Origin: Prevotella sp. UBA4268
Lineage (GTDB): Bacteria; Bacteroidota; Bacteroidia; Bacteroidales; Bacteroidaceae
Direction: 5' to 3'
DNA: 18,526 bases
NCBI GenBank assembly: GCA_002395135.1
Contig: DGWC01000087.1
Span: 1-18,526, forward strand
The stretch's first letter is position 1. Each line of letters opens with the position of its first letter. Shown here one piece after another: positions 12 to 18,526 of the stretch. A program made the translations under genes and the position numbers. The notes under the pieces were generated by a model. It searched no databases, was not told the DNA's origin, and saw only the letters and a program-made list of their open reading frames with translations.

Positions 12-60
12 TATTGAACTTAGGTATTAATTTGCGCGGTAAATTACATTAATTTGCTGA
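12..60 (+). repeat. 22-base-period AT-rich repeat upstream of the secreted repeat protein
   Basis: The ten-mer ATTAATTTGC occurs at 26-35 and again at 48-57, exactly 22 bases apart. The better unit, at 38-60, reads GGTAAATTA-CA-TTAATTTG followed by CTGA, and its two halves are a near-perfect inverted repeat (GTAAATTA / TAATTTGC). The same 23-base element occurs at 13698-13720 on the minus strand with 20 of 23 matches, within a longer array. The upstream unit (12-37) is degenerate outside the shared core. The element sits about 95 bases before the promoter of the next gene. Its function is not known. Confidence 0.7.
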
Positions 61-153
61 CCCATTTCGGCACCCCCAGTGCTGAAAAGCATTGCCACGG
101 AAGGCAGAAAGTGGCAGAAAATGTGATAAAAAGTTATGCTTTTGACAAAAATA

Positions 154-185
154 TTTGCTTGGTTGTACATTTTTTCTTATTTTTG
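154..185 (+). promoter_or_regulatory. Bacteroidota sigma-ABfr type promoter
   Basis: A -33 element TTTG (154-157) is followed after 20 bases by a -7 element TATTTTTG (178-185), matching the Bacteroides consensus TTTG / TAnnTTTG with normal spacing. Transcription would start near 190-193, giving an A-rich leader of about 80 bases before the ATG at 273. Directly before that ATG is AAAGGA, a plausible but very closely spaced ribosome-binding site. Confidence 0.75.
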
Positions 186-272
186 CAGAAAATTCAACAC
201 GTTACCCTCTTGTCGCATAAGCGAATTTTCTACAAACAATTTATACAAACTAATTTAAACAAACAAAGGATT

Positions 273-2664: not shown

Positions 2665-5600
2665 CTATTGCTTCTGCTGAGTGGTGCGATACTCCTTGGG
2701 GGTGGAGCCGTATTTCTGGCGGAAACACTTGATGAAGTAGCCCGGATCGCGGAATCCCACGGCATAGGCAATCTCTGCGATGCTCTGAGATGTGCCGGTA
2801 ACCATCTGTTCTGCCTTGGTGAGACGTATCTCTTTGACCAGGTCGACGGGCGCAAAGCCTGTGAGGCTCTTCAGTTTCTTGAAGAACACGGAACGGCTGA
2901 TGCCCATCTCCATGGCGATGGCTTCAATGCGGAAGTCTTCGTTTTGCAGGTTCTCCTCGATGATGTTGTGTATGCGCTTGATGAAGTCTAGGTCTTTCTG
3001 TTCCAGATGAGCGGAGTAGGGGCCTGCCTCGGCAGCGGTCTTGGCGTTCTGGCCTGCTGCCGGCCGGGCGGTTGGCTGCACTCCTCTTTCTGACGGGGCG
3101 GGCGTTTGGGCCACGTCTTGCAGGATATGCCGCTGGAAACGGTGCTGCTCTTCAAGCAACTGGTTGATGCGCGCCACGAGCAAATGGCTGCTGAAGGGCT
3201 TGGTGATGTAGGCGTTGGCACCGGCACTGATGGCCTCCATGTGGATGTCTTCGCCCTGTTTGGCGGTGAGGATAATCACAGGAATGTGGCTGATGGTGAA
3301 GTCTTTGCGCACGCGCCGCAGCAGTTCCATGCCGTCGATGCCGGGCATCATCAGGTCTGACACGATGATGTCGGGCGAATATTGGTAAACTTTGCGCAGT
3401 CCTTCTTCTCCGTTGTAGGCTGTGTGTATGGTGTATTTGTCTTTCAGTTGCAGGCTGAGCATGCGGCAAAGTTCTAAGTTGTCTTCTATGAGGAGGATGG
3501 TGGGCAGTTCCGTTGTGCTGGCGGTGTCGGTCTGCTCTGCGGTGTCGGCTTCGGTTTCTGCCGTCTCCGGGCTGTCAGTTGGCGTGGCTGTGACGGGCGA
3601 GGGGATGTCGGAGAGGTAGATGTCGGTAGTTTCCGGATCCAGTTGCTCCTTGGTTGTGGGCAGTTCCACGATGAAGGTAACGCCGCCTTCTTCCATGTTC
3701 TCGGCCCAGATGCGCCCTTGGTGCATATTGACGTATTCGCGTGAGAGCGAAAGGCCGATGCCGGTGCCGGTCTGGCTGGTGTCGTCGGCATGGTTGTTGG
3801 CCTGTGAGAATCGCTCGAAGATTTCTTCCAACTGGGTGTGGGGTATGCTGGCGCCATTGTCTTCCACGCGGATGGTGCAACTCTTGGCCGTGCTGTCGTG
3901 TTCCAGTGCCACGCAGATGGTGCCGCCTTCGGGCGTGAATTTGAAGGCATTGCTGACGAGGTTGTTCATCACGATGGCTATTTTCTGTGCGTCGCACCAG
4001 ATGAGCACATGCTCGCTGGGCAGTTCAAAGCGGAAGGCGATGTCGCGTTCCTGTGCCATCATGCGGTATTCCTGGTGCAGAGCCTCCAGCATGTTGTTCA
4101 CGTCGGTGAGCGAGGCATGCAGTCTCATCTTGCCGTTCTGCACTTTGCGGAAGTCAAGAATCTGGTTCACCAACTGCAGCATCTTCCGGGCGTTGTTGTC
4201 AATGAGGTTCAGGTATTCCTTGTCGGCGGCACCCAGTTGCTGGTTTTTCTTCAGTTCTTCAATGGGGCCTTTGATGAGTGTGAGCGGTGTGCGCAGTTCG
4301 TGACTGATGTTGGTAAAGAAGCGTATTTTGAGTTCTGCCAGCCGGTCGTTGATGTAAACCTCGTTGCGCATGCGTATCATGTAGATGGCCAGCCGCGCCA
4401 CGGCATAGAGTAAGGCCACCGCTAACAGGGCATAAAGGCAATAGGCCCACCACGTGGCCCACCACGGCGGCAGGATGCGTATGGTCAGTGTGCGCTCCTC
4501 GCTGGCGTTGTCCATCGTTCTCACGCGGAACGTGTATTTGCCCGGTGGCACGTTGGCATACGATGCAATGCGGTTGCTGCCGCTCATGTGCCATTGCTTT
4601 TCATATCCGTCGAGAATGTAGTTGTAGGCCACTTGCCTTTGCGTGGTGTAGTTCAACGATGCGAACTCAATGGTGAACATGTTCTGGCGGTGTGTCAGGG
4701 TGAGTGTTTCGGTGTAGCGTATGCTTCCTTCGTAGATGGGCGGGTCGAAGTCGCTCAGTGCGCGGTTCTGCACTTTGAAGTCGACGATGTAGAGCGGAGA
4801 AGTGTTCTTACTCGTTTTTTCTACCGCCGACGGGTTGAAGGTGAGCAGTCCCTGTCGGCATCCTATGAGCATGGTGCCGTTGCTCAGGCTAATGGATGTG
4901 TTGTCTTCGATATTCACATGGGGGAATCCTGCATATCGGTCATAGTGGCGGATGTAGCCTGTATGCGGGTCCAGCGTTGCCAGGGAGTTCTCGGTGCACA
5001 GCCACAGATGGTAGTTGGCATCTTCGGAAATGGAACTCACCACGCCGAGGTTGTTCTCGGAGAAAGGATACTGCTTGAGCGCTGGCTTGTGCTTTTTGCC
5101 GTCATAGCGTTCCAGCAGATACAGTCCTCCGCCGAAGACACCCATCCATACCGAACCCTGATGGTCTTTATACAGGGTGCAGATGTCGCTGTCGATGGCT
5201 TCTGATTCGCCCGTTTCACGGTAGGTCTCAAAAGCAATGCTTTCTGGTTTCTTGAAGTTCCCGGCGAAAGACATCAGTCCGTCGGTCGTTCCCACCCACA
5301 GTCGGCCGTCCTTATCCTCTGTAATCGTGCGCACGCTCATATACTGGTCGTATTGCGGATACTGGGAGAGCAAGTTGTTCTTGTGGTAGAAGCGCGTCTG
5401 GTTGCCTTGCTGCGCCAGCAGGTTGAGGCCGCCGCCGAAGGTGCAAACCCAGATTCTGTCCTTGCTGTCTTGGAATGTGTAGTACACGCGGTCGCTGCTA
5501 ATGGAGTATTTATCGGTGTAGTCGTTGGTGAAACGTGTGAACGAATAGCCTTCGGGAGCCTGCTTGTCGGGTGTCGCCTTCACCAGTCCGGCACCTTTTG

Positions 5601-6834
5601 TCGACAGCCACAGGCATCCTTGCCGGTCTTCCATGATGTGGAAGATGCTGCCAATGTCGCCCTTGAAGGCATGGATGACGGCAAATGTGTGGGGATTTAC
5701 GCAGAGCAGTTCGTTGTTTCGCGTGCCTATCCACAGGTTGCCGTTGCGTTGCTGGAGCAGTGCGCGCACGCCGTTTCCTGCAAAACTCATGGTGGAGGTC
5801 TGCGGAAAATGCAGGGAAACGAAGTTGAAATGGGAAGGTGGGAAACAGATTTTATATAGTCCGTTGACGGTGGAAGAGAGCCATAACTGACCATCGTTGT
5901 CAAGGAAAATATCATAGAAACGCACCCATTTCCCGTTGAATTCAGACTCACTGAGATTGCTCATCAGCCCGCTGTGGTGGTTATAGTGCAGGAGTTCACC
6001 GTCTGGCATCAGGATGAACAGTCCGTTTTCGCCGGCATCCTTGAACGACGGGTCGCGCAGCCGGTCGTGCTTCGGAAAAGTGAAGCGCCGGGTGGTTCCG
6101 TCGTTTGGGTGGTAGCAGGTGAGCAGTTGGTCGTTCTCGAATCTCCATACGTTTTTCAAATGGTCTGTGAAAGTTGTGTACCCCTTGCGCAGTTTTCGCG
6201 GATTCTTCTTGTCAATGGCATCGATGGAATAGTCTGTTCCAATCCAATAGCGCCGTTCACTGGTTTCCCCCTCCACGTCATGGAGCAGGCGCAAGGTGAT
6301 GGGATCGATGTCGTAGGCAGCATTGTGCAGCAGTGTCAGTTTCACATGGCCTTCCTCGTCGGCAGTGCCTTCATACAGGTTCTTGTTGCGGGTGAGCAGA
6401 AGCACACGGTTGCCGCCCATGTACCTGATCTTGATTACCTGCATGTTCTGCGAAATCTGCTTCAGTTCGTCATACACTTCGTGGTAGCGTTCCGTGCGCT
6501 TGTTGAAGATGTAGAGGCGGTTGTCCACGTTGCGCAGCCAGAGATGGCCCTTGTCGTCGTCGACAATGCTGATTACCTTCTGCGGCGGAACGTCCGACTG
6601 CCTGTTGGAACGGGTGGAAAAAGAGGAGAACACGGCACCGTCGAAAGAGCACAGTCCGTGCCAGGTGCCTATCCAAACGAATCCGTTGCGGTCTTTCTGT
6701 GCATCGTAAACAATGTTGCTGGGCAGCCCTTCGTCTTGTGAATAGTGCTCGATAATCATGCTCGGCTGTGCACTGCCGCGCCATGGCAGCAGCAGCCAGA
6801 GAATCACGAGCGCTGTTCTTCCTCCTTTCATCAT
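2665..6834 (-). CDS. Hybrid two-component system sensor histidine kinase/response regulator (HTCS, AraC type)
   Basis: This is a one-protein phosphorelay that senses a glycan fragment in the periplasm and switches on the locus. The 1389 residues show, in order: a signal peptide (to about 22, GSAQ); a double beta-propeller sensor of two-component-regulator repeats (about 30-670, with recurrent G-x-[LV]W-[IVL]-G motifs such as GNLWIGT and GRLWVGT); a Y_Y_Y domain (about 710-788); one membrane segment (about 794-818); HisKA with phospho-acceptor His845 in SHELRTP; HATPase (N958/N962, DNG 992-994, GTGIGL 1023-1028); a receiver with Asp1160 and Lys1212; and an AraC-type DNA-binding domain (about 1285-1385). 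Every catalytic residue expected of a working kinase/receiver is present. A Thr/Pro/Glu-rich linker (1062-1109) separates kinase and receiver, and a second Pro/Ala-rich linker (1241-1275) precedes the DNA-binding domain. It starts 24 bases after the GH2 stop, so it is probably the last gene of that operon and autoregulated. The first of two adjacent ATGs is taken as start. Confidence 0.96.
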   Translation of the reverse strand: MMKGGRTALVILWLLLPWRGSAQPSMIIEHYSQDEGLPSNIVYDAQKDRNGFVWIGTWHGLCSFDGAVFSSFSTRSNRQSDVPPQKVISIVDDDKGHLWLRNVDNRLYIFNKRTERYHEVYDELKQISQNMQVIKIRYMGGNRVLLLTRNKNLYEGTADEEGHVKLTLLHNAAYDIDPITLRLLHDVEGETSERRYWIGTDYSIDAIDKKNPRKLRKGYTTFTDHLKNVWRFENDQLLTCYHPNDGTTRRFTFPKHDRLRDPSFKDAGENGLFILMPDGELLHYNHHSGLMSNLSESEFNGKWVRFYDIFLDNDGQLWLSSTVNGLYKICFPPSHFNFVSLHFPQTSTMSFAGNGVRALLQQRNGNLWIGTRNNELLCVNPHTFAVIHAFKGDIGSIFHIMEDRQGCLWLSTKGAGLVKATPDKQAPEGYSFTRFTNDYTDKYSISSDRVYYTFQDSKDRIWVCTFGGGLNLLAQQGNQTRFYHKNNLLSQYPQYDQYMSVRTITEDKDGRLWVGTTDGLMSFAGNFKKPESIAFETYRETGESEAIDSDICTLYKDHQGSVWMGVFGGGLYLLERYDGKKHKPALKQYPFSENNLGVVSSISEDANYHLWLCTENSLATLDPHTGYIRHYDRYAGFPHVNIEDNTSISLSNGTMLIGCRQGLLTFNPSAVEKTSKNTSPLYIVDFKVQNRALSDFDPPIYEGSIRYTETLTLTHRQNMFTIEFASLNYTTQRQVAYNYILDGYEKQWHMSGSNRIASYANVPPGKYTFRVRTMDNASEERTLTIRILPPWWATWWAYCLYALLAVALLYAVARLAIYMIRMRNEVYINDRLAELKIRFFTNISHELRTPLTLIKGPIEELKKNQQLGAADKEYLNLIDNNARKMLQLVNQILDFRKVQNGKMRLHASLTDVNNMLEALHQEYRMMAQERDIAFRFELPSEHVLIWCDAQKIAIVMNNLVSNAFKFTPEGGTICVALEHDSTAKSCTIRVEDNGASIPHTQLEEIFERFSQANNHADDTSQTGTGIGLSLSREYVNMHQGRIWAENMEEGGVTFIVELPTTKEQLDPETTDIYLSDIPSPVTATPTDSPETAETEADTAEQTDTASTTELPTILLIEDNLELCRMLSLQLKDKYTIHTAYNGEEGLRKVYQYSPDIIVSDLMMPGIDGMELLRRVRKDFTISHIPVIILTAKQGEDIHMEAISAGANAYITKPFSSHLLVARINQLLEEQHRFQRHILQDVAQTPAPSERGVQPTARPAAGQNAKTAAEAGPYSAHLEQKDLDFIKRIHNIIEENLQNEDFRIEAIAMEMGISRSVFFKKLKSLTGFAPVDLVKEIRLTKAEQMVTGTSQSIAEIAYAVGFRDPGYFIKCFRQKYGSTPKEYRTTQQKQ

Positions 6835-6858: not shown

Positions 6859-9525
6859 TTATTTTACGCCAAATTCTTTTTGCTGCTCTTCCACTTCGTT
6901 GAGCGTTTTGCGTCGCTCTTCGTCGGTCATACCCTGTTTAGGCGTGTTGCGCGAGCCCGGCTGGAAAGTGTTCATGGAATGCCTTGACTTTGTTTCGGGC
7001 AGCATCTCATAGCACATCTTTCCCTCGTAAGGCACGCTCTCGATGGTCAGCGTGTCGGCAGCAGGCGCATAGTTGCCTTCGAAAGCAGAGCGGGCCGTGA
7101 TGGTAATCTTTCCTGCTTTGTTGGTGCTATGCACCAGAATGGGCGCACTTCCCCATTCCACGACGCGTGGATTGGCCAGAATAGAGGCATCGCCGATCAA
7201 TACACCTTCGCCCTCTACGGTGAAGAAAATATTGTCTTTTGCCAGACGGCGCACATTTCCGTTGTCGTCAGTCACCTCGGCCACAACGACGATGAAGTCG
7301 CTGCCGTCGGCCACCAGTGGCTTACCCATCTCGTCGGCATACAGACGTAACTTGGTGCTGCGGCGGGCTGGCATCTTCTTCTCCGTGCAAACCACCTTGC
7401 CGTCCTTGATACCTTCGGCCAGCAGGGAAACCTTCTGCCAGTTGCGTTGCTTGTAACTGTAGTCGCGGGCCTTCCAGAAATCCCAGAAGTCTTTGAAGAC
7501 TACGGGGGCGTTGGGCAGACCGTCGGCACGGTGGACAACGGGGAGTGTCTGCTGCTTGTCGCCCTCAAACTGGGTGAGGCGGACGCTGTCGCAGTTGGAG
7601 AAGATAACCACATCGTTGTCGGAGAACTGGGTCATTTCGTTGGCAATGAACAGCATGGGCTTTGTGATGACATCGCTTGTCAGCGATGTTTTGCCCTCAT
7701 TGGGAATTGCCTGGGAAGCAAACATCTCGCAGGCATATTTCTTCTGGCGGAAAGCATCGTAGATACCGCCGAGGTAAGGATCTGGATGGTAGCCGCGCTG
7801 GTGGTCGAAAGGATGCCACTGGCAACCGCCAATGAACTGGCGCTGGCCGTGGAACATCGTTCCATAGGTGTCTGCCAGCGAGAGCGCAGCGGTGAGCATG
7901 GGCTTCTCTCCCCAAAAGCGGGCGGCGCGGTTGATGCAGTTATGTGCATACCAGTCGTCCACCATCTCGCCGAATTCGCGGGTAAAGATGCACTTCTCAG
8001 TGCCGAGTTCCGGATTGTCCATGTCCTCGGGCCATCCGTAGAGCACGTCATAATTGTCTTTCACACCTGCCGAATGCATGTCGGCGGCAGCCACGGGGCG
8101 ACCCTCATACGGGAATTCCTCGCGAGTGATTTGCAGTGCCTCCAGGGCAAAGTCCTCAGGATATCTGGTTTCATTGAGGATGGGTTCCCACATCAGCACA
8201 CACGGATGGTTGCGGTCGCGGCGGATAATCTCGCGCGTGTTCTGGTGGACAAGTGCTGCCCATCCCTCTTCTTTGTTCCAGTATTGCCAGCCCGGCGTGG
8301 GTACGATGATGAAGATTCCCAGTTCGTCGCAGGCATCCATGAACGAAGGATCCTGCGGATAGTGGGCGGCGCGGATGATGTTCATGCCCGCATCTTTCAG
8401 TCGCCGGGCGTCTCTCCATTGCTGCGAATTGGGCAACGCATTGCCCACATAGGCAAAATCCTGATGGCGATTGCCTCCCACTAACTGGCGATAGGGCTTG
8501 CCGTTGAGCCAGAAACCGTCTTTTCCGCGGAACTCTGCCTTGCGGATACCCATGCGCACACAGCCGCCGTCGAGCCGTTGCTTGCCGTTCATCACCTGTA
8601 TTTCCACCTTATATAAATAAGGAGATTCTGGCGACCAGAGGTGAGGGCTGGGCAGAGAGGTCTTGAGCGTGGCGGTGACTGCGGGGATTTCCTGCTCAGA
8701 AAGGTAATCGCCCGACGGGCGTACAGGGCCGGGGACGGTCACATTCCCCTTGATTGTCTTCACGAGTCGCCCGTCAGCATCTTTGATTCGGGCAACAATG
8801 GTGGGAGAGCACTTGCGGTTCAGTCTGCTGCCCACTTCCACGTTGATGAACACATCGGCACTTTTTTCCGAGATATGGTCGTAATGCAGGAACACACCGC
8901 CGCCGGCAACCTTGTTCCGCTCAATGGCATCGGTGATGGCTACCGAAGACTTGCCGATGAGCCATACGTCGCGGTACATGCCGCCATGATAGGCAAAGTC
9001 GAGCGCCGACTGCTTTTTTCCCGGCGGGTAATTCTTGTCGTCGCTGTTGTCAGCCTGTACTGCAATCAGGCATTTGTCTCCTGCTTTCACTCCCGCTTGT
9101 GTCAGGTTGACGGTGATGGGCTGATAGCCGCCGAGATGTTTTTTCACCATTCTTCCGTTCACATAGATGAGTTGTTTGCCCATGATGGCCTCGAAGTGTA
9201 TGGTGATGTCCTTGTCGCGCAGGTCGACGGGCACGGTGAACTGCTTGCGATACCATGAAATGCCCTGATAGTTGCGGCATCCACTGGCTTCGCTGGGTTC
9301 CAGCCGTGAAGTGTGCGGGGCGCATACCACGTCCCATTTTGAGTCATCAAAGTCCACGGCCTCGGCACCTTTGGCATCGCCGAGCAGGAAGCGCCAGCCT
9401 TGATTGAAGTTATATATGATGCGACCGGAATTCTCCAGCGGGAACAATCCGGCTACAGATGTCTCCTGGGCACTCACAGTGATGATGCCCAGGAGCAGGG
9501 ATAGAAAGGCGATGGTTCTTTTCAT
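6859..9525 (-). CDS. Glycoside hydrolase family 2 enzyme (beta-galactosidase-like, periplasmic)
   Basis: 888 residues with a signal peptide (MKRTIAFLSLLLGIITVSAQ) and GH2 architecture: jelly-roll sugar-binding domain (about 35-190), Ig-like domain (about 195-325), TIM barrel (about 328-600) and C-terminal beta domains, including a GH2 C5-like domain (about 735-830). The likely acid/base is Glu452 in NHPCVLMWEPILNE and the likely nucleophile Glu517 in TREFGE. The catalytic WEPILNE is one residue longer than the common WSxGNE, marking a subgroup away from LacZ. GH2 includes beta-galactosidases, beta-glucuronidases and alpha-L-arabinopyranosidases. All three linkages occur in RG-II side chains, so the activity cannot be read from the sequence alone. 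If it works after the GH95, removal of the beta-GlcA exposed in chain A is one option. The C-terminal 45 residues are charged and probably disordered. It begins 15 bases after the GH78 stop. Confidence 0.93.
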   Translation of the reverse strand: MKRTIAFLSLLLGIITVSAQETSVAGLFPLENSGRIIYNFNQGWRFLLGDAKGAEAVDFDDSKWDVVCAPHTSRLEPSEASGCRNYQGISWYRKQFTVPVDLRDKDITIHFEAIMGKQLIYVNGRMVKKHLGGYQPITVNLTQAGVKAGDKCLIAVQADNSDDKNYPPGKKQSALDFAYHGGMYRDVWLIGKSSVAITDAIERNKVAGGGVFLHYDHISEKSADVFINVEVGSRLNRKCSPTIVARIKDADGRLVKTIKGNVTVPGPVRPSGDYLSEQEIPAVTATLKTSLPSPHLWSPESPYLYKVEIQVMNGKQRLDGGCVRMGIRKAEFRGKDGFWLNGKPYRQLVGGNRHQDFAYVGNALPNSQQWRDARRLKDAGMNIIRAAHYPQDPSFMDACDELGIFIIVPTPGWQYWNKEEGWAALVHQNTREIIRRDRNHPCVLMWEPILNETRYPEDFALEALQITREEFPYEGRPVAAADMHSAGVKDNYDVLYGWPEDMDNPELGTEKCIFTREFGEMVDDWYAHNCINRAARFWGEKPMLTAALSLADTYGTMFHGQRQFIGGCQWHPFDHQRGYHPDPYLGGIYDAFRQKKYACEMFASQAIPNEGKTSLTSDVITKPMLFIANEMTQFSDNDVVIFSNCDSVRLTQFEGDKQQTLPVVHRADGLPNAPVVFKDFWDFWKARDYSYKQRNWQKVSLLAEGIKDGKVVCTEKKMPARRSTKLRLYADEMGKPLVADGSDFIVVVAEVTDDNGNVRRLAKDNIFFTVEGEGVLIGDASILANPRVVEWGSAPILVHSTNKAGKITITARSAFEGNYAPAADTLTIESVPYEGKMCYEMLPETKSRHSMNTFQPGSRNTPKQGMTDEERRKTLNEVEEQQKEFGVK

Positions 9526-9540
9526 AGAATTGCGATTTCA

Positions 9541-12500
9541 TTAGGGTTGAAGTTCCACATGTTTCACGCGCAGACGTCTCCATGTGTAAACGGCGTGCAA
9601 CTTGCCATCGCTCGTCTGGATGATTGACGGATAAGAATACTGGTTGATGGGGCTTTCTTCGAGCGTCACCCAGTGTTTCCAGTTCATTCCGTCATCGCTG
9701 AGCAGCACCGACAGCGGCGTGCGGGCACCCTTCTGCTTGTCGGGTTCGATGGGCCAGTCGTTACATATCAGCGCGTAGCGCCCGTCTTTCAGGTTGACGG
9801 CATCCAGTCCGCTGTTGTTGTTGGGAACGTCAATGAGTTGCAGTTTGCTCCACGTCTCGCCGTTGTCGCTGCTGAAGGTAACGCCGATGTGGCGGCTGCG
9901 TGTGCGGCAGAGTGCTTCCAGACGACCGTCGGGCAGCACGAGGATGCTCGGCTGGATGGCCAGCAAGCCGCTGTCAGCCTCCACGAAGTCGGTGCGTTTC
10001 CACGTCTTTCCCATGTCGTCGCTGTATTCGAAATAGCATTTCCAGCCGTGGCGCTCGTCACTGGTGGGCGAGATGAGACGACCCTTGTTCAGGATGGGTT
10101 TGTTCTTGATGGGACCATACAGGTCGTCGGGCAGCGGTTCGCGCTTGCTCCATGTCTTGCCGCCGTCCTTGCTGCGTATCATCCATCCCTTCCATCCGGC
10201 CACGTTCACACCGATTTTGAAATAAATGCGCAGTTCGCCGTTGGGAACTTGATATACCACGGGGTTCCAGCAGGCTTCGCGATAGTCGGGACGGAACACG
10301 CCGTCGGCCACCATCTGCGGTGCCGTCCATTCCTTGGCTCCCTTTGGTTTGCGGCTTACCCAGATGCAAACGTCAGGGTGCCGCTCGTGGGTTCCGCCGA
10401 AATAGCAGGCCACCAGGTCGCCCTTGGTCGTCTCAGCAATGCTGGCAGAGTGGCACTGCGGGAACGAAGCCTCTTTGTAGAGGAACTCATCCACCAGCAC
10501 GGCACTGCTGCCCGTGTTTTCCTTCACCTCGAAATGATACTTGCCAGAACCGATACTCTTCATTGTTCCGTCGGCAAGATAAACGTCGGCAGTGGTGTTA
10601 GCAGGTATCTCAATGTCCCATACCACCATGCCGCCGGCCTTCTTCCATTTGCTCACAATCTTGCCATAGACCGACTGATAGGACGCATCGGCCTGATCCA
10701 TCTCGTCAACAGTGAAGTCGGGCTTCAGGATAATGTGCTTGAATCCCGGCTTGCCGCTGCGGATTCCCGCCACATCCTCATAGAGCCATGAGAGCAAGTC
10801 GCCCAGCAACATCACGTGGTTGCCGCTGTTCATGCTCGGGTTGGCGGTGTCGCCGTTCCACAGTTCCCAGATGGTGGTGGCACCTTTGGCTGCCATATAC
10901 CCCCAACTGGGGTAACTCTTGTTGGTGGCCAGTTGCCAGGCCATGTCGCTTCTGCCCATGTCGGTGAGCGCATGCATGAGCCATCCGATGCCAATCACGC
11001 CGCACGACACCTTTCCTCCGTTCAGCGTGATGATGTTCTTGATGATGTTCTTCTCCACCTCGCCGCGCACATAGTCGTCGTCAATCATTCCGAAGGCGAG
11101 CGGCAGGATGTTGGCGGTGACGGTATTGTTGCCGTAGTAGGTGTCATCGGGATAGAGCAGATGGCCAGGCACGGTGGTCGTTCCCTTGTTTACGTGCAGG
11201 AATTTCTTGTTGAAAGCCTCCTTCACCATCTTGGCTTCCTGCTCAAAGAAGTCGGCATCGCCCGTAAGACCCTGCATGTTGGCAAACTGAGCCATCAGTT
11301 TGCAGCAGCGGTAGTAATAGGCCGTGCCGATGAGGGTGCCGTCGGTAACGCGCCGCGGATCCTTGCTGTGAATCAGTTCCTCGCTCTCTGGCGGCACGCA
11401 CCAGTCGCCGTATTTGTCGCGCGGCATCAGTCCGTCCTCCTGATACTGGTCTTTCAGGTGCATCATCCAGCGCTTCACGTCGGGGTAGAACTTCTTCATG
11501 GGCGCGTCGTCGCCATATTGATTCACCATCATCTCTAATGAGAACGGCAGGGCTGCCGGCCAGGTGACGTTGTCACTATAATAGTTCCAGAAGGCTGGAG
11601 CCACATCGGGAATGCAGCCGTCTTCGCGTTCTGCCTCTGTGATGTCGCGCACCCACTTGGCATAGAGCGCGTTGTTGTCGAAGACGAAAGCCTCGCCAAA
11701 GCAGCCGCGTGTGCGATCGCCCAGCCACGGCTGGCGCTCGTCGCGCTGCGGACAGTCAACAGGCATGCCCTTGTAGTTGCTGCGGATGCCCCACACCGCG
11801 TTGCGATACACCTTGTTGAGCACCTCGTTGCCGGTGACAAGGCTGCCCGTTTCTTCCATTTCATCGTTGATTACTTCCCCGATGAAATCGTCGATTTTCA
11901 TGTTTTCGATGCCGGAAATCTCGGCAAAGCGGAATCCGTGGTACACGAAGGTGGGGTTCCACCAACTGCCCTGCTCCTTGCCGTTGGCGATATAGTAGTC
12001 GGTTGAGTTGGCGTGACGGAAGTTGGCGCGCCACAGATTCCCCGTGCTGTCCACCTTCTCGGCAAACACAATCTTCACCGTGTCGCCGCTCTTGGCGTTG
12101 TTGATGCGCACTTTCAGCCATCCCGCCATGTTCTGGCCCAGGTCAACCACGTATTTGCTGCCAATCTTCTGAATGCCGGCGGGCTTGATCTGCTCCACCA
12201 CCTTCATGTTGGGAGCCATGGCTCCGCGAAGCGTTCCCGTGGGAATGGCCACGCGCTCGGCAGGCCGCCACTTGCTGTCGTCATATCCCGGCATGTCCCA
12301 TCCTGTGAGTTCCATGCGGGCATCATATATTTCGCCGTCGTATTCGTTGTTGCTGCGGATGGCACCGTTGGCGTTCAGTTTCCATCTTTCGGTCGATGAA
12401 ATGGTCTTTTTGCTGCCGTCGGTATATTCGATAATCAGGTTCAGGCGCAGTTTCGGATAGCCGAAGTTGGCAATCTTGTAGGGCTTTTTCTTCTGCTGCA

Positions 12501-13242
12501 TGGTATAGTAGCGGCCGTTGCCCAGTGCCACGCCGATGGCATTCCGCTCGCTGAGCAGGTCGGTCACGTCGAAAGCGTTGTAGAGCACGGTCTTGCGGTA
12601 GTCGGTGGGAGCCGGTGCCAGCACTTGGTCGCCCACCTTCTTGCCGTTGATAAAGGCCTCATACATGCCCAGTCCGCTGATATAGAGCGTGGCCTGTTTC
12701 ACCTCCTTGTCACCCTTCTCAAACTCCGTGCGCAGGTAGCGGGCCGACAGTTGGCTGTGTTCCACCTCCTTGTCCCACGGCATGGCTCGGTCCAGACCAA
12801 TCCATTGTCCCTGCCAGTCGCTCTCGGTGAGCAGTCCCACGTTCCACATGGCAATGTCGCTCCAAGCCGATTCGCCCTTGGTGGTGTTCACTTTCACGCG
12901 CCAGTAGCAGCGAGTGTTGCTGCGCAGCCGCTTTCCGGCGTACGGAATCCACTGCGAGTCGGACGTGTTCAGGGTGTAGTCCCACAAGTCGCCCTCCAGC
13001 GCCTCCGCCTTCTCTCGCGACGAGGCCACGATGATGCGGGCCGATGTCTGCATCACGTCGTTCTGGTTAGAAGCAATTTGCCAGCCCAGCCGTGGTGTCT
13101 GCGTGTCCACGCTCATGGGGTTGGTCAGGCGTTCCGTGCGCAGGTGTTCCACTTTCAGCGTCGTCACGTTCACTTTTTTCTTGGCTGCCGTTGCGGAAAT
13201 CGCCGCAAAGCAGAGCAGCATGATCAGGAAGTTTTTTCTCAT
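9541..13242 (-). CDS. GH78 alpha-L-rhamnosidase fused to a C-terminal BNR/sialidase-like propeller
   Basis: 1233 residues with a signal peptide (MRKNFLIMLLCFAAISATAA, no proper lipobox). Residues about 25-905 are a complete GH78: N-terminal beta domains, the (alpha/alpha)6 barrel, and a closing beta domain (about 825-905). The expected general acid is Glu502 in DCPQRDER and the expected base Glu793 in ATTIWELW, by the usual GH78 pattern. Residues about 912-1230 are a separate propeller like COG4692 (predicted neuraminidase) with Asp boxes SKDGGKTW (1024-1031), SDDMGKTW (1074-1081) and SSDNGETW (1124-1131), plus a degenerate SDDGMNW (1182-1188). The sialidase FRIP motif is missing; its place reads SFPQCHSA, so true sialidase activity is unlikely. 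Two enzymes in one chain suggest consecutive cuts on one glycan. First gene of its operon, with an A-rich leader and AAGGA about 20 bases before the ATG. Confidence 0.93.
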   Translation of the reverse strand: MRKNFLIMLLCFAAISATAAKKKVNVTTLKVEHLRTERLTNPMSVDTQTPRLGWQIASNQNDVMQTSARIIVASSREKAEALEGDLWDYTLNTSDSQWIPYAGKRLRSNTRCYWRVKVNTTKGESAWSDIAMWNVGLLTESDWQGQWIGLDRAMPWDKEVEHSQLSARYLRTEFEKGDKEVKQATLYISGLGMYEAFINGKKVGDQVLAPAPTDYRKTVLYNAFDVTDLLSERNAIGVALGNGRYYTMQQKKKPYKIANFGYPKLRLNLIIEYTDGSKKTISSTERWKLNANGAIRSNNEYDGEIYDARMELTGWDMPGYDDSKWRPAERVAIPTGTLRGAMAPNMKVVEQIKPAGIQKIGSKYVVDLGQNMAGWLKVRINNAKSGDTVKIVFAEKVDSTGNLWRANFRHANSTDYYIANGKEQGSWWNPTFVYHGFRFAEISGIENMKIDDFIGEVINDEMEETGSLVTGNEVLNKVYRNAVWGIRSNYKGMPVDCPQRDERQPWLGDRTRGCFGEAFVFDNNALYAKWVRDITEAEREDGCIPDVAPAFWNYYSDNVTWPAALPFSLEMMVNQYGDDAPMKKFYPDVKRWMMHLKDQYQEDGLMPRDKYGDWCVPPESEELIHSKDPRRVTDGTLIGTAYYYRCCKLMAQFANMQGLTGDADFFEQEAKMVKEAFNKKFLHVNKGTTTVPGHLLYPDDTYYGNNTVTANILPLAFGMIDDDYVRGEVEKNIIKNIITLNGGKVSCGVIGIGWLMHALTDMGRSDMAWQLATNKSYPSWGYMAAKGATTIWELWNGDTANPSMNSGNHVMLLGDLLSWLYEDVAGIRSGKPGFKHIILKPDFTVDEMDQADASYQSVYGKIVSKWKKAGGMVVWDIEIPANTTADVYLADGTMKSIGSGKYHFEVKENTGSSAVLVDEFLYKEASFPQCHSASIAETTKGDLVACYFGGTHERHPDVCIWVSRKPKGAKEWTAPQMVADGVFRPDYREACWNPVVYQVPNGELRIYFKIGVNVAGWKGWMIRSKDGGKTWSKREPLPDDLYGPIKNKPILNKGRLISPTSDERHGWKCYFEYSDDMGKTWKRTDFVEADSGLLAIQPSILVLPDGRLEALCRTRSRHIGVTFSSDNGETWSKLQLIDVPNNNSGLDAVNLKDGRYALICNDWPIEPDKQKGARTPLSVLLSDDGMNWKHWVTLEESPINQYSYPSIIQTSDGKLHAVYTWRRLRVKHVELQP
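9553..10509 (-). other. Domain: BNR propeller (COG4692-like) at the C-terminus of the rhamnosidase
   Basis: About 319 residues (912-1230 of the fusion) form a self-contained unit with three good Asp boxes and one or two degraded ones, as in a six-bladed propeller. Conserved-looking blocks include CHSAS, CYFGGTHE, REACWNPV, KNKPI, QPSI, CRTRSRHIGV and SYPSI, which could line the active site. The Arg-rich CRTRSRH block and the YREACWNP block could hold a carboxylate-bearing substrate. There is no in-frame stop or spacer between this part and the GH78 part, so the fusion is real in this sequence. Confidence 0.8.
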
Positions 13243-13846: not shown

Positions 13847-15286
13847 TTACCAGCGCTCGGTGAGCGCGGTGGCATCCTTCTTGATATAGTCCTTGGCGCT
13901 GTCAACGGCGATAATCACGCGGTCGCTGTTGTTGAGATAGGCACCGTCGTAGACAAATTCAGTTACTTTGTTGTCATACTCGCCCAGGTATTTCAGTGAG
14001 CCGTCGATGGGGTTCATCTGCCACACGTTTTTCTTCGTGCCCGAAATCTTGGTGAGGTCCACCTGCATGGGCTTGCCGCTGTAGTTGTAAACAAGCAGGT
14101 AGTCGTTGCCGCGGGTGGCAATCACGCGGTCGTAGCGCTCGCCGTTCTGCCCGGCAATGACGCTCTGGTCGGGAATGCGCTCGGTGAAGGGGAAGGCAAG
14201 GATGAGCCATTTCACGTATTTCATCTGCTTGAGTCCGGGGTCTTCAAGAGCGTCCCACCATGTCTTCGTGGCAAAGAACGAGGCTCCGGTGCCGGGGCGG
14301 TGGAACTGCATGATGCTGTTGTGGCCGTAGGTATGGCCGAAGCAGCCTGCGAACACGGCCCAATAGGCATAGCGGCGCACGTCGTAGTCTTGCCAGCGGG
14401 GTTCGTCGTTGCTGTGTAGCCCCTGGGGAATGTCCTCGTATGAGGGTTCGCCGTCAAGCACTGGCTTCATGGGCTGTTTCTCCCAACTCATGTCCACGTA
14501 GCGCCAGTTGTCTTCCTCGGTGTTTTCTTTGATGGTGTAGTCGCCGTCGCCGTTGCGCTGTCCGTAGCGTCGGTGTCCGCTCTGGAACATGTTGAAGTCG
14601 AGCCATTCACGGTCGTTGAACCATCGGGCAGAGGTGGTTCTGCCGCGCGGATGGAAGGTCATCACGTGGTTAGGGTCGTATTTGCGGATGGTTCTGGCGA
14701 GCACGTCCCACTGTGCTGTGCCCCTGTCGCCGAGCACGTCGCCTCCAATCATCCAGATGATGTTGGGCTTGTCTTTGTAGCGCTCGGCCAGGAATTTGCC
14801 GTAGGTGGCTGCCTTCTTGTCGTCCATGCGCTGGATTTGCGAGCCCCACACGCAGTCCATGGCGATGTAGATGCCGTTGCGGGCGGCCACGTCGACGATG
14901 TAGTCGAGGTGTTCCCAATAGCCGTAGACACCGGGCTTTGAGAACTTGGAGCAGTCGAAACTCTCGTCGTTGGCCTGGAATCCGAATATATTAAAGGTGG
15001 GAATGGAGTTGATCACCTGGATTTGCTCCACATTGTAGCCCTGCTGGCGTTCCTTGCCCAGATAGTAACTCACCTCTTCGCGGTTGAGCCTCTCGGGGAG
15101 CAGCCAAGAGGTGTTGCCCAGCCAGAAGAAGGGGGTGCCGTTCTCGTGTACGAGGAACCGCTTGTTGTCGCTCACTTTGAGTTTTCCGTTATCCCAAGGC
15201 AGATAGATGGATGGTCTTCTGCGCTGTGCGTTTGCGCCCGAGACAAACATGGCAATCAGGGCGGCTAAAATAATTGTTCTCTTCAT
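13847..15286 (-). CDS. GH140-family (DUF4038) enzyme, probable apiosidase
   Basis: 479 residues with a signal peptide (cleavage after ANA at 20). The N-terminal TIM-barrel part (about 30-370, DUF4038) has the family motifs FFWLGNTSWLL (53-63), WMIGGDVLGD and PVLDGEPSYED. The last part (about 380-465) is the small beta domain usually labelled putative collagen-binding. The founding GH140 enzyme, BT1012 of B. thetaiotaomicron, is an exo-apiosidase that cuts the Api-GalA bond and frees side chains A and B from the RG-II backbone. From memory its catalytic pair is Asp187 and Glu284. Here Asp183 (GGDV) and Glu280 (DGEP) stand at the same spacing, which supports an active enzyme of that kind. Last gene of its block, 28 bases after the GH95 stop. 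DUF4038 also covers uncharacterised relatives, so apiose specificity is inferred from the motifs and neighbours. Confidence 0.88.
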   Translation of the reverse strand: MKRTIILAALIAMFVSGANAQRRRPSIYLPWDNGKLKVSDNKRFLVHENGTPFFWLGNTSWLLPERLNREEVSYYLGKERQQGYNVEQIQVINSIPTFNIFGFQANDESFDCSKFSKPGVYGYWEHLDYIVDVAARNGIYIAMDCVWGSQIQRMDDKKAATYGKFLAERYKDKPNIIWMIGGDVLGDRGTAQWDVLARTIRKYDPNHVMTFHPRGRTTSARWFNDREWLDFNMFQSGHRRYGQRNGDGDYTIKENTEEDNWRYVDMSWEKQPMKPVLDGEPSYEDIPQGLHSNDEPRWQDYDVRRYAYWAVFAGCFGHTYGHNSIMQFHRPGTGASFFATKTWWDALEDPGLKQMKYVKWLILAFPFTERIPDQSVIAGQNGERYDRVIATRGNDYLLVYNYSGKPMQVDLTKISGTKKNVWQMNPIDGSLKYLGEYDNKVTEFVYDGAYLNNSDRVIIAVDSAKDYIKKDATALTERW

Positions 15287-15314: not shown

Positions 15315-17768
15315 TTATTTTGATGCGGTGACGGTCAGCGCCTGCCCGGCTTTGACTGACACTTGATAGAGGTTTTCGTATTTGCTGGCCACTTTTTTCA
15401 GTCCCTTCCCCTTGAGAGGAGTGGCCGAGCGGACAAGCAGGGTGCCGCCTTGGGTGGCCTTGATGGTGGCCGACTGCAACCGATGGTTTTGCCAGCGCAT
15501 GGCCACGTCGTGGTTGCCGCGCGCCTTCAGACCGCTGACTTCGCCTTCGCTCCATGCGTCGGGCAGGGCCGGCAGCAGGTGGATGACCTGGTAATTGCCT
15601 CGTTTCGAGACGACTGTTTCCTGACTTTGCAGGAGCATCTCGGCGATGCCGGCAGCACAGCCGAAGTTTCCGTCAATCTGGAATGGCGGGTGGGCATCGA
15701 AGAGGTTGGGGTAGGTGCCGCCCTTTTTCTTCTCGTTGCGCACCAGCGAGAGTTGGTCGCTGATGAGTTTTGCGGCGTGGTTACCGTCGAGGAGGCGCGC
15801 CCAGAGGCATACTTTCCAGCCCATTGACCATCCTGTGGAGGGGTCGCCGCGATGGATGAGCACCGTTTTGGCGGCTTCGGCCAGTTCGGGGGTGTTGATG
15901 GGCGAAATCTGGTTGCTGGGATAGAGGGCATAGAGATGGCTCACGTGGCGATGGGTGTCGTCGGGATTATCCCAGTCGTCGAGCCACTCCTGCAACTGTC
16001 CGTAGCGGCCAATCTGCAGCGGCGGCAGTTGGGCGAGTTTTTCTTTCAGGCTGTCGGTGAGCGCAAGGTTCTGGCCGAGGATGTTGCTGGCCTGTATCAC
16101 GTGGGTGAAAAGGTCGCTCACCAGTTCGTTGTCCATGGTGACACCGGCCGCGGTGGTTGCCCGGTGCTTGTGTTCGTTCTCCGGCGAGAGGCTGGGACAA
16201 ACCACCCAGTATCCCTTTTCGGGGTGCTTCACCATAATCTGGTTCAGGAAGCGGGCGGCTCCCACCATGATGGGGAAGGCCTCGCGCAGGAAGTTTTTGT
16301 CGGCCGTGTATAGCCAATGCTCCCACAGATGCTGGCACATCCATGCTGCACCGGTGGGCCACATGCCGCTCGTTGCCCTGTCGATGGCACCGGTGACGCG
16401 CCAGATGTCGGTGTTGTGGTGGAGCACCCAGCCGTCGGCATCGTACATAATCCGTGCGCTCTGGTGGCCTGTCTCGCTGATGTCTTTGATGAGCGAGAGC
16501 AGCGGCTCGGTGAGATCGGAGAGGTTGCCCACCTCGGCGGGCCAGTAGTTCATCTCCAGATTGATGTTGGTGGTGTATTTAGAGTCCCATGCGGGGTAGA
16601 GGGAGTCGTTCCAAATGCCCTGCAGCGTGGGCGGCTGGTTGCCTGGCTGCGATGTGCAGATGAGCAGGTAGCGCCCGAACTGGAAATAGGTTTCCACGAG
16701 GTGCAGGTCGTTGTTGTCCTTGAATTGTTCCACACGGCGGTCGGTGGTGAGGTGGGCGAAGCGGTCGCTGCCCAGGTTCAGGTTGACACGGTTGAACTGT
16801 TTCTGATAAAAGGCCACATGGCTCTGCTTCATTTCCTGATAACTGGTTTGGAGTGCCTGTTTCAGAATCCGTTCCGATTTCTCCACGTCGTTGCCGCTGA
16901 TGTCGTCGTAGTGCTTGAAATTGGTGGCAATGGAGATGTAGAGCGTGGCCTCGTCGGCCCCCTCAATGCTCAGCGCACCCTCGCGGCTCCTCATGGTTCC
17001 GCCCTTGCAGCGGGCAGTTACGCGTCCGGTGAAAGTTACTTTTCCCTTCAGTCCCTCGTGGTTGCCGCTGATGCCGCTCAGCGTTATCTCGTCGCCTTCG
17101 CTGGCTATCGTCACGTCGGAATGCGGAGAGGTGAGCGAGGCAACAAAGGTAACGGCTCCCTTTTTGCTGGCGGTGAGATGTACGGTGATGACGTTTCCCG
17201 TGAACGAGGCGATGTATTCCCGTCGGAAAGCGGTTCCGTCAACAGTATATTGTGTGACGGCGCGGGCGGAGTCGAGCGAGAGTTCGCGGATATAGTTCGT
17301 GTAATTGGTATGTCCGGGGAAGTTGATGGATAGGTTGCCAAACGGCTGATAGGGCATGCCGTGGTTGGTTCGGCTCTGAACATGAGCCGTTCCCATCTCT
17401 TGTGCTTCCTGGTATCTGCCTTCCCAGACCAACTGCTGAATCTTAGGCAGGTATTCTTTAGCCTCGGGGTTGGCATTGTTGTTGGGCTGTCCGGCCCAGA
17501 TGGTTTCCTCGTTCAACTGCAGCCGGTCGGCAAAGACGTTTCCGAAGACCATGGCTCCTAACCGTCCATTGCCGATGGGCAGCGCCTCTGTCCATGTCTG
17601 GGCGGGGCGGTCGTACCACAGTTTGTGCTCATTGGCGGCCTTTGCGGGTTGGGAACCTAAGGCAACGAGCAGGATGAGGATGACCAGCAGCGACTGCCAT
17701 GCATCGGCCTTTTTTGTGAATAGTTGCGAGAATGCTGAATCAGATGGTGCGGATGAATGTGCTTTCAT
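15315..17768 (-). CDS. GH95 enzyme, probable alpha-L-galactosidase
   Basis: 817 residues, full GH95 length, with an unusually long polar N-terminus before the signal hydrophobic stretch (26-38, cleavage probably after AKA near 44). No later Met fits, so this start stands. GH95 cleaves alpha-L-Fuc or alpha-L-Gal with inversion. The N-terminal beta domain is followed by an (alpha/alpha)6 barrel with WDSKYTTNINLEMNYWPAE (394-412), SPEN with likely acid Glu530, and HPPFQIDGNFG with Asp699. In the fucosidase AfcA the asparagine pair is preceded by a His that recognises the fucose methyl group. Here that place is Thr399, as I recall from characterised alpha-L-galactosidases. This fits the terminal L-galactose of RG-II chain A. 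It begins seven bases after the esterase stop, with AAAGA close before the ATG. Confidence 0.92.
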   Translation of the reverse strand: MKAHSSAPSDSAFSQLFTKKADAWQSLLVILILLVALGSQPAKAANEHKLWYDRPAQTWTEALPIGNGRLGAMVFGNVFADRLQLNEETIWAGQPNNNANPEAKEYLPKIQQLVWEGRYQEAQEMGTAHVQSRTNHGMPYQPFGNLSINFPGHTNYTNYIRELSLDSARAVTQYTVDGTAFRREYIASFTGNVITVHLTASKKGAVTFVASLTSPHSDVTIASEGDEITLSGISGNHEGLKGKVTFTGRVTARCKGGTMRSREGALSIEGADEATLYISIATNFKHYDDISGNDVEKSERILKQALQTSYQEMKQSHVAFYQKQFNRVNLNLGSDRFAHLTTDRRVEQFKDNNDLHLVETYFQFGRYLLICTSQPGNQPPTLQGIWNDSLYPAWDSKYTTNINLEMNYWPAEVGNLSDLTEPLLSLIKDISETGHQSARIMYDADGWVLHHNTDIWRVTGAIDRATSGMWPTGAAWMCQHLWEHWLYTADKNFLREAFPIMVGAARFLNQIMVKHPEKGYWVVCPSLSPENEHKHRATTAAGVTMDNELVSDLFTHVIQASNILGQNLALTDSLKEKLAQLPPLQIGRYGQLQEWLDDWDNPDDTHRHVSHLYALYPSNQISPINTPELAEAAKTVLIHRGDPSTGWSMGWKVCLWARLLDGNHAAKLISDQLSLVRNEKKKGGTYPNLFDAHPPFQIDGNFGCAAGIAEMLLQSQETVVSKRGNYQVIHLLPALPDAWSEGEVSGLKARGNHDVAMRWQNHRLQSATIKATQGGTLLVRSATPLKGKGLKKVASKYENLYQVSVKAGQALTVTASK

Positions 17769-17775
17769 ATCTTTA

Positions 17776-18526
17776 TTATTGCTTGGGTGTGAATCTTAAT
17801 GTGTTTTCTTCTTCAATGGTTACTTTGTCTTCATCGAGACAGTCGCGGTTGAGAGAAAAAGCCTGGATAAAAAACTCATAGACGGCATTGCGCTTGTTGG
17901 GGCCGAAATCGTGGCGCTCCTTGGGCAGATGAATGTTCATTACCTTCGGTGATTGGCCGTAGAAACCGTAGATGCGCTGCAGATAGGGGAATTCAACTTC
18001 CGGGGTGGTGCTCGTCCAGTCGCCGCCGTCGCTGACCACCATCATGGGTTTCGGGGCGAACATGGCGGCCAATTCGCCATTGCAGGTGCCTCCGCCTGCC
18101 AGTTGGATGGGCTTGCCGCTTTCGCAAGGACAGCCCCCGTCGAACCATGCCGACATGCTGACAACAGGACAGGAGGCCGTGAACCGGTCGTCGAGCACGG
18201 TGAGCAGCACGGTTTGTGTGCCTCCGCCTGACCCGCCGTTCACGCCGATGCGCTTCGGGTCGATGTCTTTATGGGTGTAAAGCAGGTTGAGAATGCGTAG
18301 GCCGTTGTATGCCTGCATCACGTGCGCCTCACTGGTATGGTGCGCTTCGGCCCCCACTTCATCCTCGCTCTCGCCCCATCCCCACAGGTCGTAGCTAACG
18401 CAGACGGCACCCATGCGGGCCAGCGTGGCATAGCGTTTCTGCAGGTCTGCATTGTAACGACCGCCGTTGAAATGGCCGTTGGGACAGACAATCAGCGGAT
18501 ACTTACCGGTTTTCCGTTTTCCATCC
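17776..18526 (-). CDS. Alpha/beta-hydrolase esterase, CE19-like (5' end outside window)
   Basis: Only the last 249 residues are seen. The frame stays open through the window edge (GKYPLIVCPNGHFNGG ...), so the Met at 18414 is internal and not the start. The alpha/beta-hydrolase core has PNGH near the oxyanion strand, the nucleophile elbow GVNGGSGGG (Ser at codon 18229-18231), a candidate acid Asp in DGGDW, and His in ERHDFG. The blocks GGCPCESG and NGELAAMFAPKPM are typical of esterases often annotated acetylxylan esterase. Several of these belong to CE19, whose founder BT1017 is, as I recall, a pectin methylesterase of the RG-II locus. A role in removing methyl or acetyl esters from pectin fragments is therefore likely, but the family call is tentative. 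First visible gene of the esterase-GH95-GH140 block. Confidence 0.85.
   Translation of the reverse strand, partial: DGKRKTGKYPLIVCPNGHFNGGRYNADLQKRYATLARMGAVCVSYDLWGWGESEDEVGAEAHHTSEAHVMQAYNGLRILNLLYTHKDIDPKRIGVNGGSGGGTQTVLLTVLDDRFTASCPVVSMSAWFDGGCPCESGKPIQLAGGGTCNGELAAMFAPKPMMVVSDGGDWTSTTPEVEFPYLQRIYGFYGQSPKVMNIHLPKERHDFGPNKRNAVYEFFIQAFSLNRDCLDEDKVTIEEENTLRFTPKQ

Follow-up and report, generated by a model that had tools for sequence, protein, structure and literature searches.

The nearest described relatives of the protein analysed here are GH33 enzymes and the RG-II enzymes of Bacteroides. GH33 catalysis by a Tyr nucleophile with paired Arg residues is an established mechanism. The 2017 paper of Ndeh et al. 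on RG-II in B. thetaiotaomicron is said to assign the Kdo step to BT1013, and the BT1020-type GH143-GH142 protein, which we take to be the chain D enzyme, shows how two glycosidases in one chain can dismantle a disaccharide side chain. Excerpts of published accounts list sialidase, trans-sialidase, anhydrosialidase, Kdo hydrolase and KDNase as GH33 activities (PMC9120202), name a GH33 Kdo hydrolase among RG-II enzymes in a metaproteome (PMC11214529) and describe RG-II chain C as terminating in alpha-1,5-rhamnose (PMC12282258).

Here we describe a single-chain protein from Prevotella sp. UBA4268 that joins a GH78 alpha-L-rhamnosidase to a GH33-fold propeller. It is encoded in an 18,526-nucleotide stretch of DNA, hereafter the window. 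With a probability of roughly 0.78, we propose that it is an exported two-step exo-glycosidase for RG-II side chain C, where substrate, mechanism, order of action and export are what we infer. It shares its locus and its two-enzyme build with the BT1020-type protein but lacks the PF24067 propeller found there, and it would act on chain C rather than chain D sugars. The protein does not look new but seems to be related to a Bacteroides enzyme that is already known, and the chain C idea is probably not new either, since the excerpts above list a Kdo hydrolase in GH33 and name one for RG-II. Within the titles and passages of open-licence literature that we searched, we found no description of this GH78-propeller fusion, nor of the altered active site or the aldolase link reported below, the searches not having been aimed at the aldolase.

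Results

The fusion is a complete two-domain protein that recurs in relatives. The open reading frame (9541..13242, minus strand; 1233 aa) carries all five GH78 Pfam modules over their cut-offs: Ig_Rha78A_N (residues 31-138), Bac_rhamnosid_N (179-350), Bac_rhamnosid (362-458), the six-hairpin catalytic domain (464-824, 336 bits) and the C domain (826-901). Together these make up the GH78 half (residues 31-901; 10540..13152, minus strand). The propeller follows (residues 912-1233; 9544..10509, minus strand), with BNR_2 matched at 941-1216 (283.9 bits) over profile positions 1-276 of 277. By eye, the N-terminus resembles a signal peptide. Of 1646 proteins that the propeller found among candidates 0.55-1.75 times as long as the query, the 120 listed all combine PF17389 with PF13088. 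The GH78 half is matched in 80/80 named loci (the best 80 of 372 relatives), a count that partly reflects selection because the query rows were mostly fused ones. This recurrence argues that the fusion, which the earlier note had read from the sequence, is real and not an assembly error.

The GH78 half lies near rhamnosidases of solved structure and retains their catalytic positions. It matches 6i60 with 512 bits and 3w5m with 397 bits. Glu502, in CPQRDER (497-503), and Glu793, in TIWELWNG (790-797), occupy the acid and base positions, opposite the RDER and WE motifs of 3w5m; we presume these roles from Rha78A.

The second half is a six-bladed Asp-box propeller of the sialidase type (residues 912-1233). 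Three strict Asp boxes (SKDGGKTW at 1024, SDDMGKTW at 1074 and SSDNGETW at 1124) are joined by a fourth, looser one at 1182; in 20,000 shuffles of the domain, two boxes arose in 2 and three in none, which bears out the earlier note's Asp-box claim. That note had also proposed comparing the fold with GH33, and the predicted fold of the whole domain is indeed GH33. Two other assignments were set aside: GH143, as the window protein has no PF24067 match in Pfam at E<=0.001, and L-Rha-GlcA lyase, as 7esk came up at no better than E 0.54.

The propeller probably keeps the sialidase plan around a rebuilt active site. We mapped this site using residue numbers that we take to hold for RgNanH, Neu2, NanI and the Micromonospora enzyme; the letters expected at these numbers in RgNanH fit its chain in the phmmer alignment. 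The sialidase positions fall on His931, Glu953, Gln1097, Arg1113, Arg1174 and Tyr1204. All six, including Gln1097, Glu953, the Tyr and the two Arg, are invariant in 108/108 aligned loci; these are 108 of 110, with L027 dropped for one in-frame stop and L131 because its span is not one open frame. GH33 sialidases, intramolecular trans-sialidases and Kdo hydrolases share with the propeller its fold, Asp boxes, Tyr and second and third Arg. The propeller differs from these enzymes in three places: the FRIP Arg is replaced by His, the acid Asp by Glu and the Glu partner of the Tyr by Gln. The missing FRIP arginine, which had been noted as evidence against the chain C role, is thus confirmed; His931 takes that column by ungapped extension, and two of the three carboxylate-binding Arg (Arg1113 and Arg1174) are kept. 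The hhalign path itself leaves a gap at the FRIP Arg and favours Tyr1202 as the nucleophile. We prefer Tyr1204, on which phmmer and spacing agree and which is conserved in 108/108 loci versus 97/108 for Tyr1202. Because the Tyr-assisting Glu is now Gln and one of three Arg is lost, ordinary sialidase chemistry cannot be assumed.

The window lies in an RG-II-type locus. All of the window genes listed here are on the minus strand. An HTCS hybrid two-component regulator (2665..6834; Reg_prop, HisKA, HATPase_c, Response_reg and HTH_18) probably regulates the locus of the fusion. A GH2 glycosidase (6859..9525) adjoins the fusion and has a relative in the same stretch in 8/80 named loci (best 80 of 372). 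Beyond the fusion lie a GH140 apiosidase-type enzyme (13847..15286; PF13204), a GH95 enzyme (15315..17768) and, at 17776..18525, the C-terminal portion of a gene for a pectin methylesterase resembling BT1017 (Pfam and BLAST). This gene continues outside the window through a run of N, and L006 1-891 has a match in the PME-DUF3826 protein of B. ihuae (69% over 170 aa). The next gene past the window (C36:19240-23499) encodes in one chain a GH43-type N-terminus (assigned by BLAST), a BT_1020 propeller (GH143), a CBM and an MGH1-like domain (GH142); we take GH142 and GH143 to be the names given to the two parts of BT_1020-like proteins. It is this GH143-GH142 gene, together with GH140, GH95, GH2, the HTCS and the methylesterase-like gene, that marks the locus as RG-II type.

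Gene order places the fusion where BT1013 stands in B. thetaiotaomicron. That species is not among the best 80 of 372 relatives, and the B. ihuae and B. faecis loci served as stand-ins. Genes of B. faecis, G219, G282 and other loci were labelled by their BLAST matches to proteins of B. ihuae or the window, and some of these labels were checked with Pfam. The B. ihuae order is a PL-like gene (no Pfam match), DUF3826, GH43, GH143-GH142, GH78, GH28, methylesterase-DUF3826, GH95, GH140, the fusion, GH127 and GH141; a GH3 label in this locus was given by eye. In B. faecis (L060), GH95, a 400-aa gene and GH140 are followed directly by the fusion, with methylesterase, GH28 and GH78 farther along on the opposite strand. 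The two fusions, both GH78-BNR_2, are 68% identical over 1217 aa, and the window propeller, at about 57% identity to that of B. ihuae, belongs to a diverged relative. Excerpts of one study identify BT1012 as an apiosidase, BT1017 as a methylesterase and BT1018 as a galacturonidase (PMC7939467); these identities and the gene order beside GH140 put the fusion in the place of BT1013, which adjoins BT1012. The earlier note's tentative suggestion that BT1013 may have a similar build therefore stands at the level of synteny, through B. faecis, where the fusion directly follows the BT1012-type GH140.

RG-II genes surround the fusion across its relatives. Among the 80 named loci (best 80 of 372), GH140 occurs in 66, GH95 in 53 and methylesterase in 31, and at least one of seven RG-II genes is found in 47 of the 50 with full flanks. 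The B. xylanisolvens XB1A locus (L063) has the same gene set and agrees by content, not by locus tags, with PUL 2 as excerpted. According to these excerpts, growth on pectin induces PUL 2, and several of its genes respond more strongly at a late stage; the excerpts describe PUL 2 as a homologue of a B. thetaiotaomicron locus that RG-II induces, and the families they list for it are GH28, GH33, GH43 and GH78 (PMC4769552). The GH33 in that excerpted list could alternatively be the BT1020-type gene.

The propeller tracks RG-II markers across the order. We searched 295 genomes for the propeller, PF24067, DUF3826 and the aldolase described below, and found the propeller (E<=1e-40) in 32, PF24067 in 19 (15 strong, over 200 bits, and four weak) and DUF3826 in 12. 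The propeller is present in 14/15 genomes with strong GH143 (all save G022) versus 18/280 others, in 15/19 when the four weak matches are counted, and in 12/12 genomes with DUF3826 versus 20/283 others. In 10 of the 14 genomes with propeller and strong GH143, the coordinates place the two on the same contig, no more than 30 kb apart.

Propeller and GH78 are fused in some genomes and separate in others. Seven of the 32 frames with the propeller are longer than 1200 aa, and each of the seven belongs to a GH143 genome; the three checked with Pfam (the window, B. ihuae and G133) are GH78 plus BNR_2, and in G133 a xylose-isomerase-like TIM barrel follows in the same chain. Such a barrel replaces GH78 as the propeller's partner in G208. 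G219 carries GH78 and the propeller as neighbouring separate genes among GH142, GH28, methylesterase and GH95 genes, and in G282 a BNR_2 gene stands alone, flanked by DUF3826 and methylesterase genes. Partners that are fused here and neighbours elsewhere suggest successive action on one substrate.

Propeller genes also occur outside RG-II loci. Strong GH143 matches are lacking in 18 of the 32 propeller genomes. In a tree of 29 of these 32 (G107, G111 and G281 left out) and 12 of the 80 named loci, midpoint-rooted for drawing only, a single group of 18 rows holds G282, G068 and G176 together with 15 of the 16 genomes without GH143; G003, also without GH143, groups with the RG-II rows. Three genomes without GH143 (G007, G212 and G233) pair a lone propeller gene with a sodium/solute symporter and a DHDPS/NAL-family aldolase, resembling a sialic-acid operon; an AraC-type regulator is close by in G007 and G212 (checked) and in G233 (by eye).

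A clade of NAL-type aldolases is linked to the propeller in both settings. Aldolases from these three clusters and from RG-II genomes form one clade (SH-aLRT 98, 13 rows) in a quick-method tree of 27 rows, all from propeller-positive genomes, with one long branch (G131). A search with one member of this clade (E<=1e-50) finds the linked aldolase in 18/295 genomes, of which 14 have the propeller, versus 18/277 among the rest; G005, G008, G022 and G166 have the aldolase and no propeller. Among the 280 genomes without strong GH143, the propeller is present in 4/7 with the aldolase versus 14/273 without (p 3.8e-4, an optimistic value, as are all our Fisher tests, since genomes of shared ancestry overstate independence); in G262, one of those four, propeller and aldolase sit on separate contigs. 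In 9/32 propeller genomes a DHDPS-family gene is found no more than 30 kb from the propeller, where uniform placement would give 1.15; the gene of one of the nine, G131, falls outside the linked clade. Among the 15 GH143 genomes, the linked clade is absent (E<=1e-50) from the window genome, B. ihuae (G165), G006 and G133. The propeller-linked aldolase of G282 is encoded at C274:2228-3145, and the window genome has an OtnK-linked one at C24:3872-4783. The propeller-aldolase link points to a propeller product from which an aldolase could release pyruvate, that is, a 3-deoxy-2-ulosonic acid; the four GH143 genomes without the aldolase and the four genomes without the propeller speak against it.

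Discussion

We propose that the fusion would take chain C apart in two steps. The GH78 half would first remove the terminal alpha-L-rhamnose, and the GH33-fold half would next hydrolyse the exposed Kdo off the galacturonan backbone. Here the Tyr would attack the carboxylate-bearing anomeric carbon while the two Arg hold that carboxylate; His931 would replace the first Arg, Glu953 would serve as acid/base and Gln1097 would stand in for the Tyr-assisting Glu. The earlier note had offered chain C as a candidate role, and the RG-II-type locus, the GH33 fold with its Tyr and two Arg, and the aldolase link all support it. The assignment to this chain rests on elimination and setting; rhamnose is also found on other RG-II chains. 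Also against it, 18 of the 32 genomes with the propeller have no strong GH143 match, and the window's own genome lacks the linked aldolase clade at E<=1e-50.

The fusion might instead serve another place in RG-II, with GH78 cutting a rhamnose off a different chain and the propeller hydrolysing some other acidic sugar, either Dha or a uronic acid. In favour of this, RG-II holds several rhamnose linkages, and a second GH78 is present in the B. ihuae locus, the B. faecis locus and the window's genome (on C98). We nevertheless judge it unlikely: GH143, which we take to be the Dha hydrolase family, occupies the same loci, and a uronic acid suits a Tyr nucleophile with paired Arg less well than a 2-ulosonic acid does. 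No more probable is the view that the propeller is a decayed sialidase which now binds sugar and keeps acidic side chains in place for the GH78 half. Loss of the FRIP Arg and the Glu-to-Gln change are what such decay might look like. Against it, the six site residues, Tyr and both Arg among them, do not vary in any of the 108 loci, propeller genes without a GH78 domain stand free in G219 and G282, and the propeller is linked to the aldolases.

That the propeller is simply a sialidase acting on sialic acids of host or diet, its union with GH78 accidental, is scarcely credible. Database names such as exo-alpha-sialidase and the GH33 fold itself invite that reading; the lost FRIP Arg and the RG-II setting, seen in 47/50 full-flank loci among the best 80 of 372, led us to set it aside in favour of the two-step chain C enzyme. 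More tentatively, this BNR_2 subfamily may extend beyond RG-II as a class of hydrolases for ulosonic acids that share the rebuilt His/Glu/Gln site, its RG-II branch taking Kdo and its branch in nan-like operons (Na+ symporter, NAL-type aldolase and AraC regulator), from genomes of this order that lack GH143, a keto-acid sugar.

Our reading connects an abundant family, annotated in databases as rhamnosidase or exo-alpha-sialidase, with RG-II chain C, and it warns that such genes should not be read as sialic-acid enzymes. With the named residues and the partner aldolase, the Kdo step and the catabolism that follows it would become open to testing. A related hydrolase is also indicated outside RG-II.

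A gene module built around a sialic-acid-lyase-like aldolase offers a candidate route for the breakdown of Dha. Genome G000, from which the window comes, carries a five-gene module at C24:3872-9801 (locus L183) comprising a DHDPS/NAL-type aldolase, a Na+ symporter, an iron-containing alcohol dehydrogenase, PdxA and an OtnK/DtnK-type kinase. The module would cleave Dha to pyruvate and a C4 acid, and a later step would convert threonate 4-phosphate to DHAP. Similar sets occur at L049, L053, L188 and L191, and in genomes G108 and G208 such a set sits inside the RG-II locus. These two RG-II loci (L185/L049 in G108, L186/L053 in G208) each hold two different aldolases, one from each clade, and each of the two adjoins a symporter-like gene.

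Propeller and aldolase also occur outside this setting. Three nan-like clusters (L136, L137 and L138) carry the BNR_2 propeller in genomes without GH143. At C17:17827-22486, genome G008 holds an aldolase of the propeller-linked kind and, some 3.6 kb away, a 415-aa frame with a weak likeness to the BT_1020 propeller; no BNR_2 propeller was found in this genome at the search cut-off. A xylose-isomerase-like TIM barrel (PF01261) follows the propeller in one chain, together with GH78 in G133 (L043 12584-17197) and without it in G208 (L053 17903-19888). Such a barrel, if an isomerase, could act on the sugar that the attached glycosidase sets free.

Further genes lie in and beside the window, and others farther away. 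Just outside it, GH43, GH143 and GH142 parts form a single 1420-aa chain on the minus strand (G000:C36:19240-23499, L006 1240-5499). B. ihuae has GH43 as a gene of its own, apart from the one for GH143-GH142. A methylesterase-like gene (window 17776-18525) continues into L006 and is crossed by an assembly N run; no DUF3826 domain was found at the end of this interrupted frame, and the sole DUF3826 match of G000 stands alone on C98. At the other edge, a large plus-strand protein with about four internal repeats, judged by eye, lies upstream of the regulator (window 54..2564). BNR proteins of another kind, some 590 aa long, are encoded on G000:C51 (L010 8963-10744) and at L098 5807-7582, and in Palleniella a protein resembling them by eye stands between GH140 and the GH78-BNR_2 fusion.

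Pairing of the two aldolase clades within the G108 and G208 loci is the pattern expected if one aldolase serves Kdo and the other Dha.
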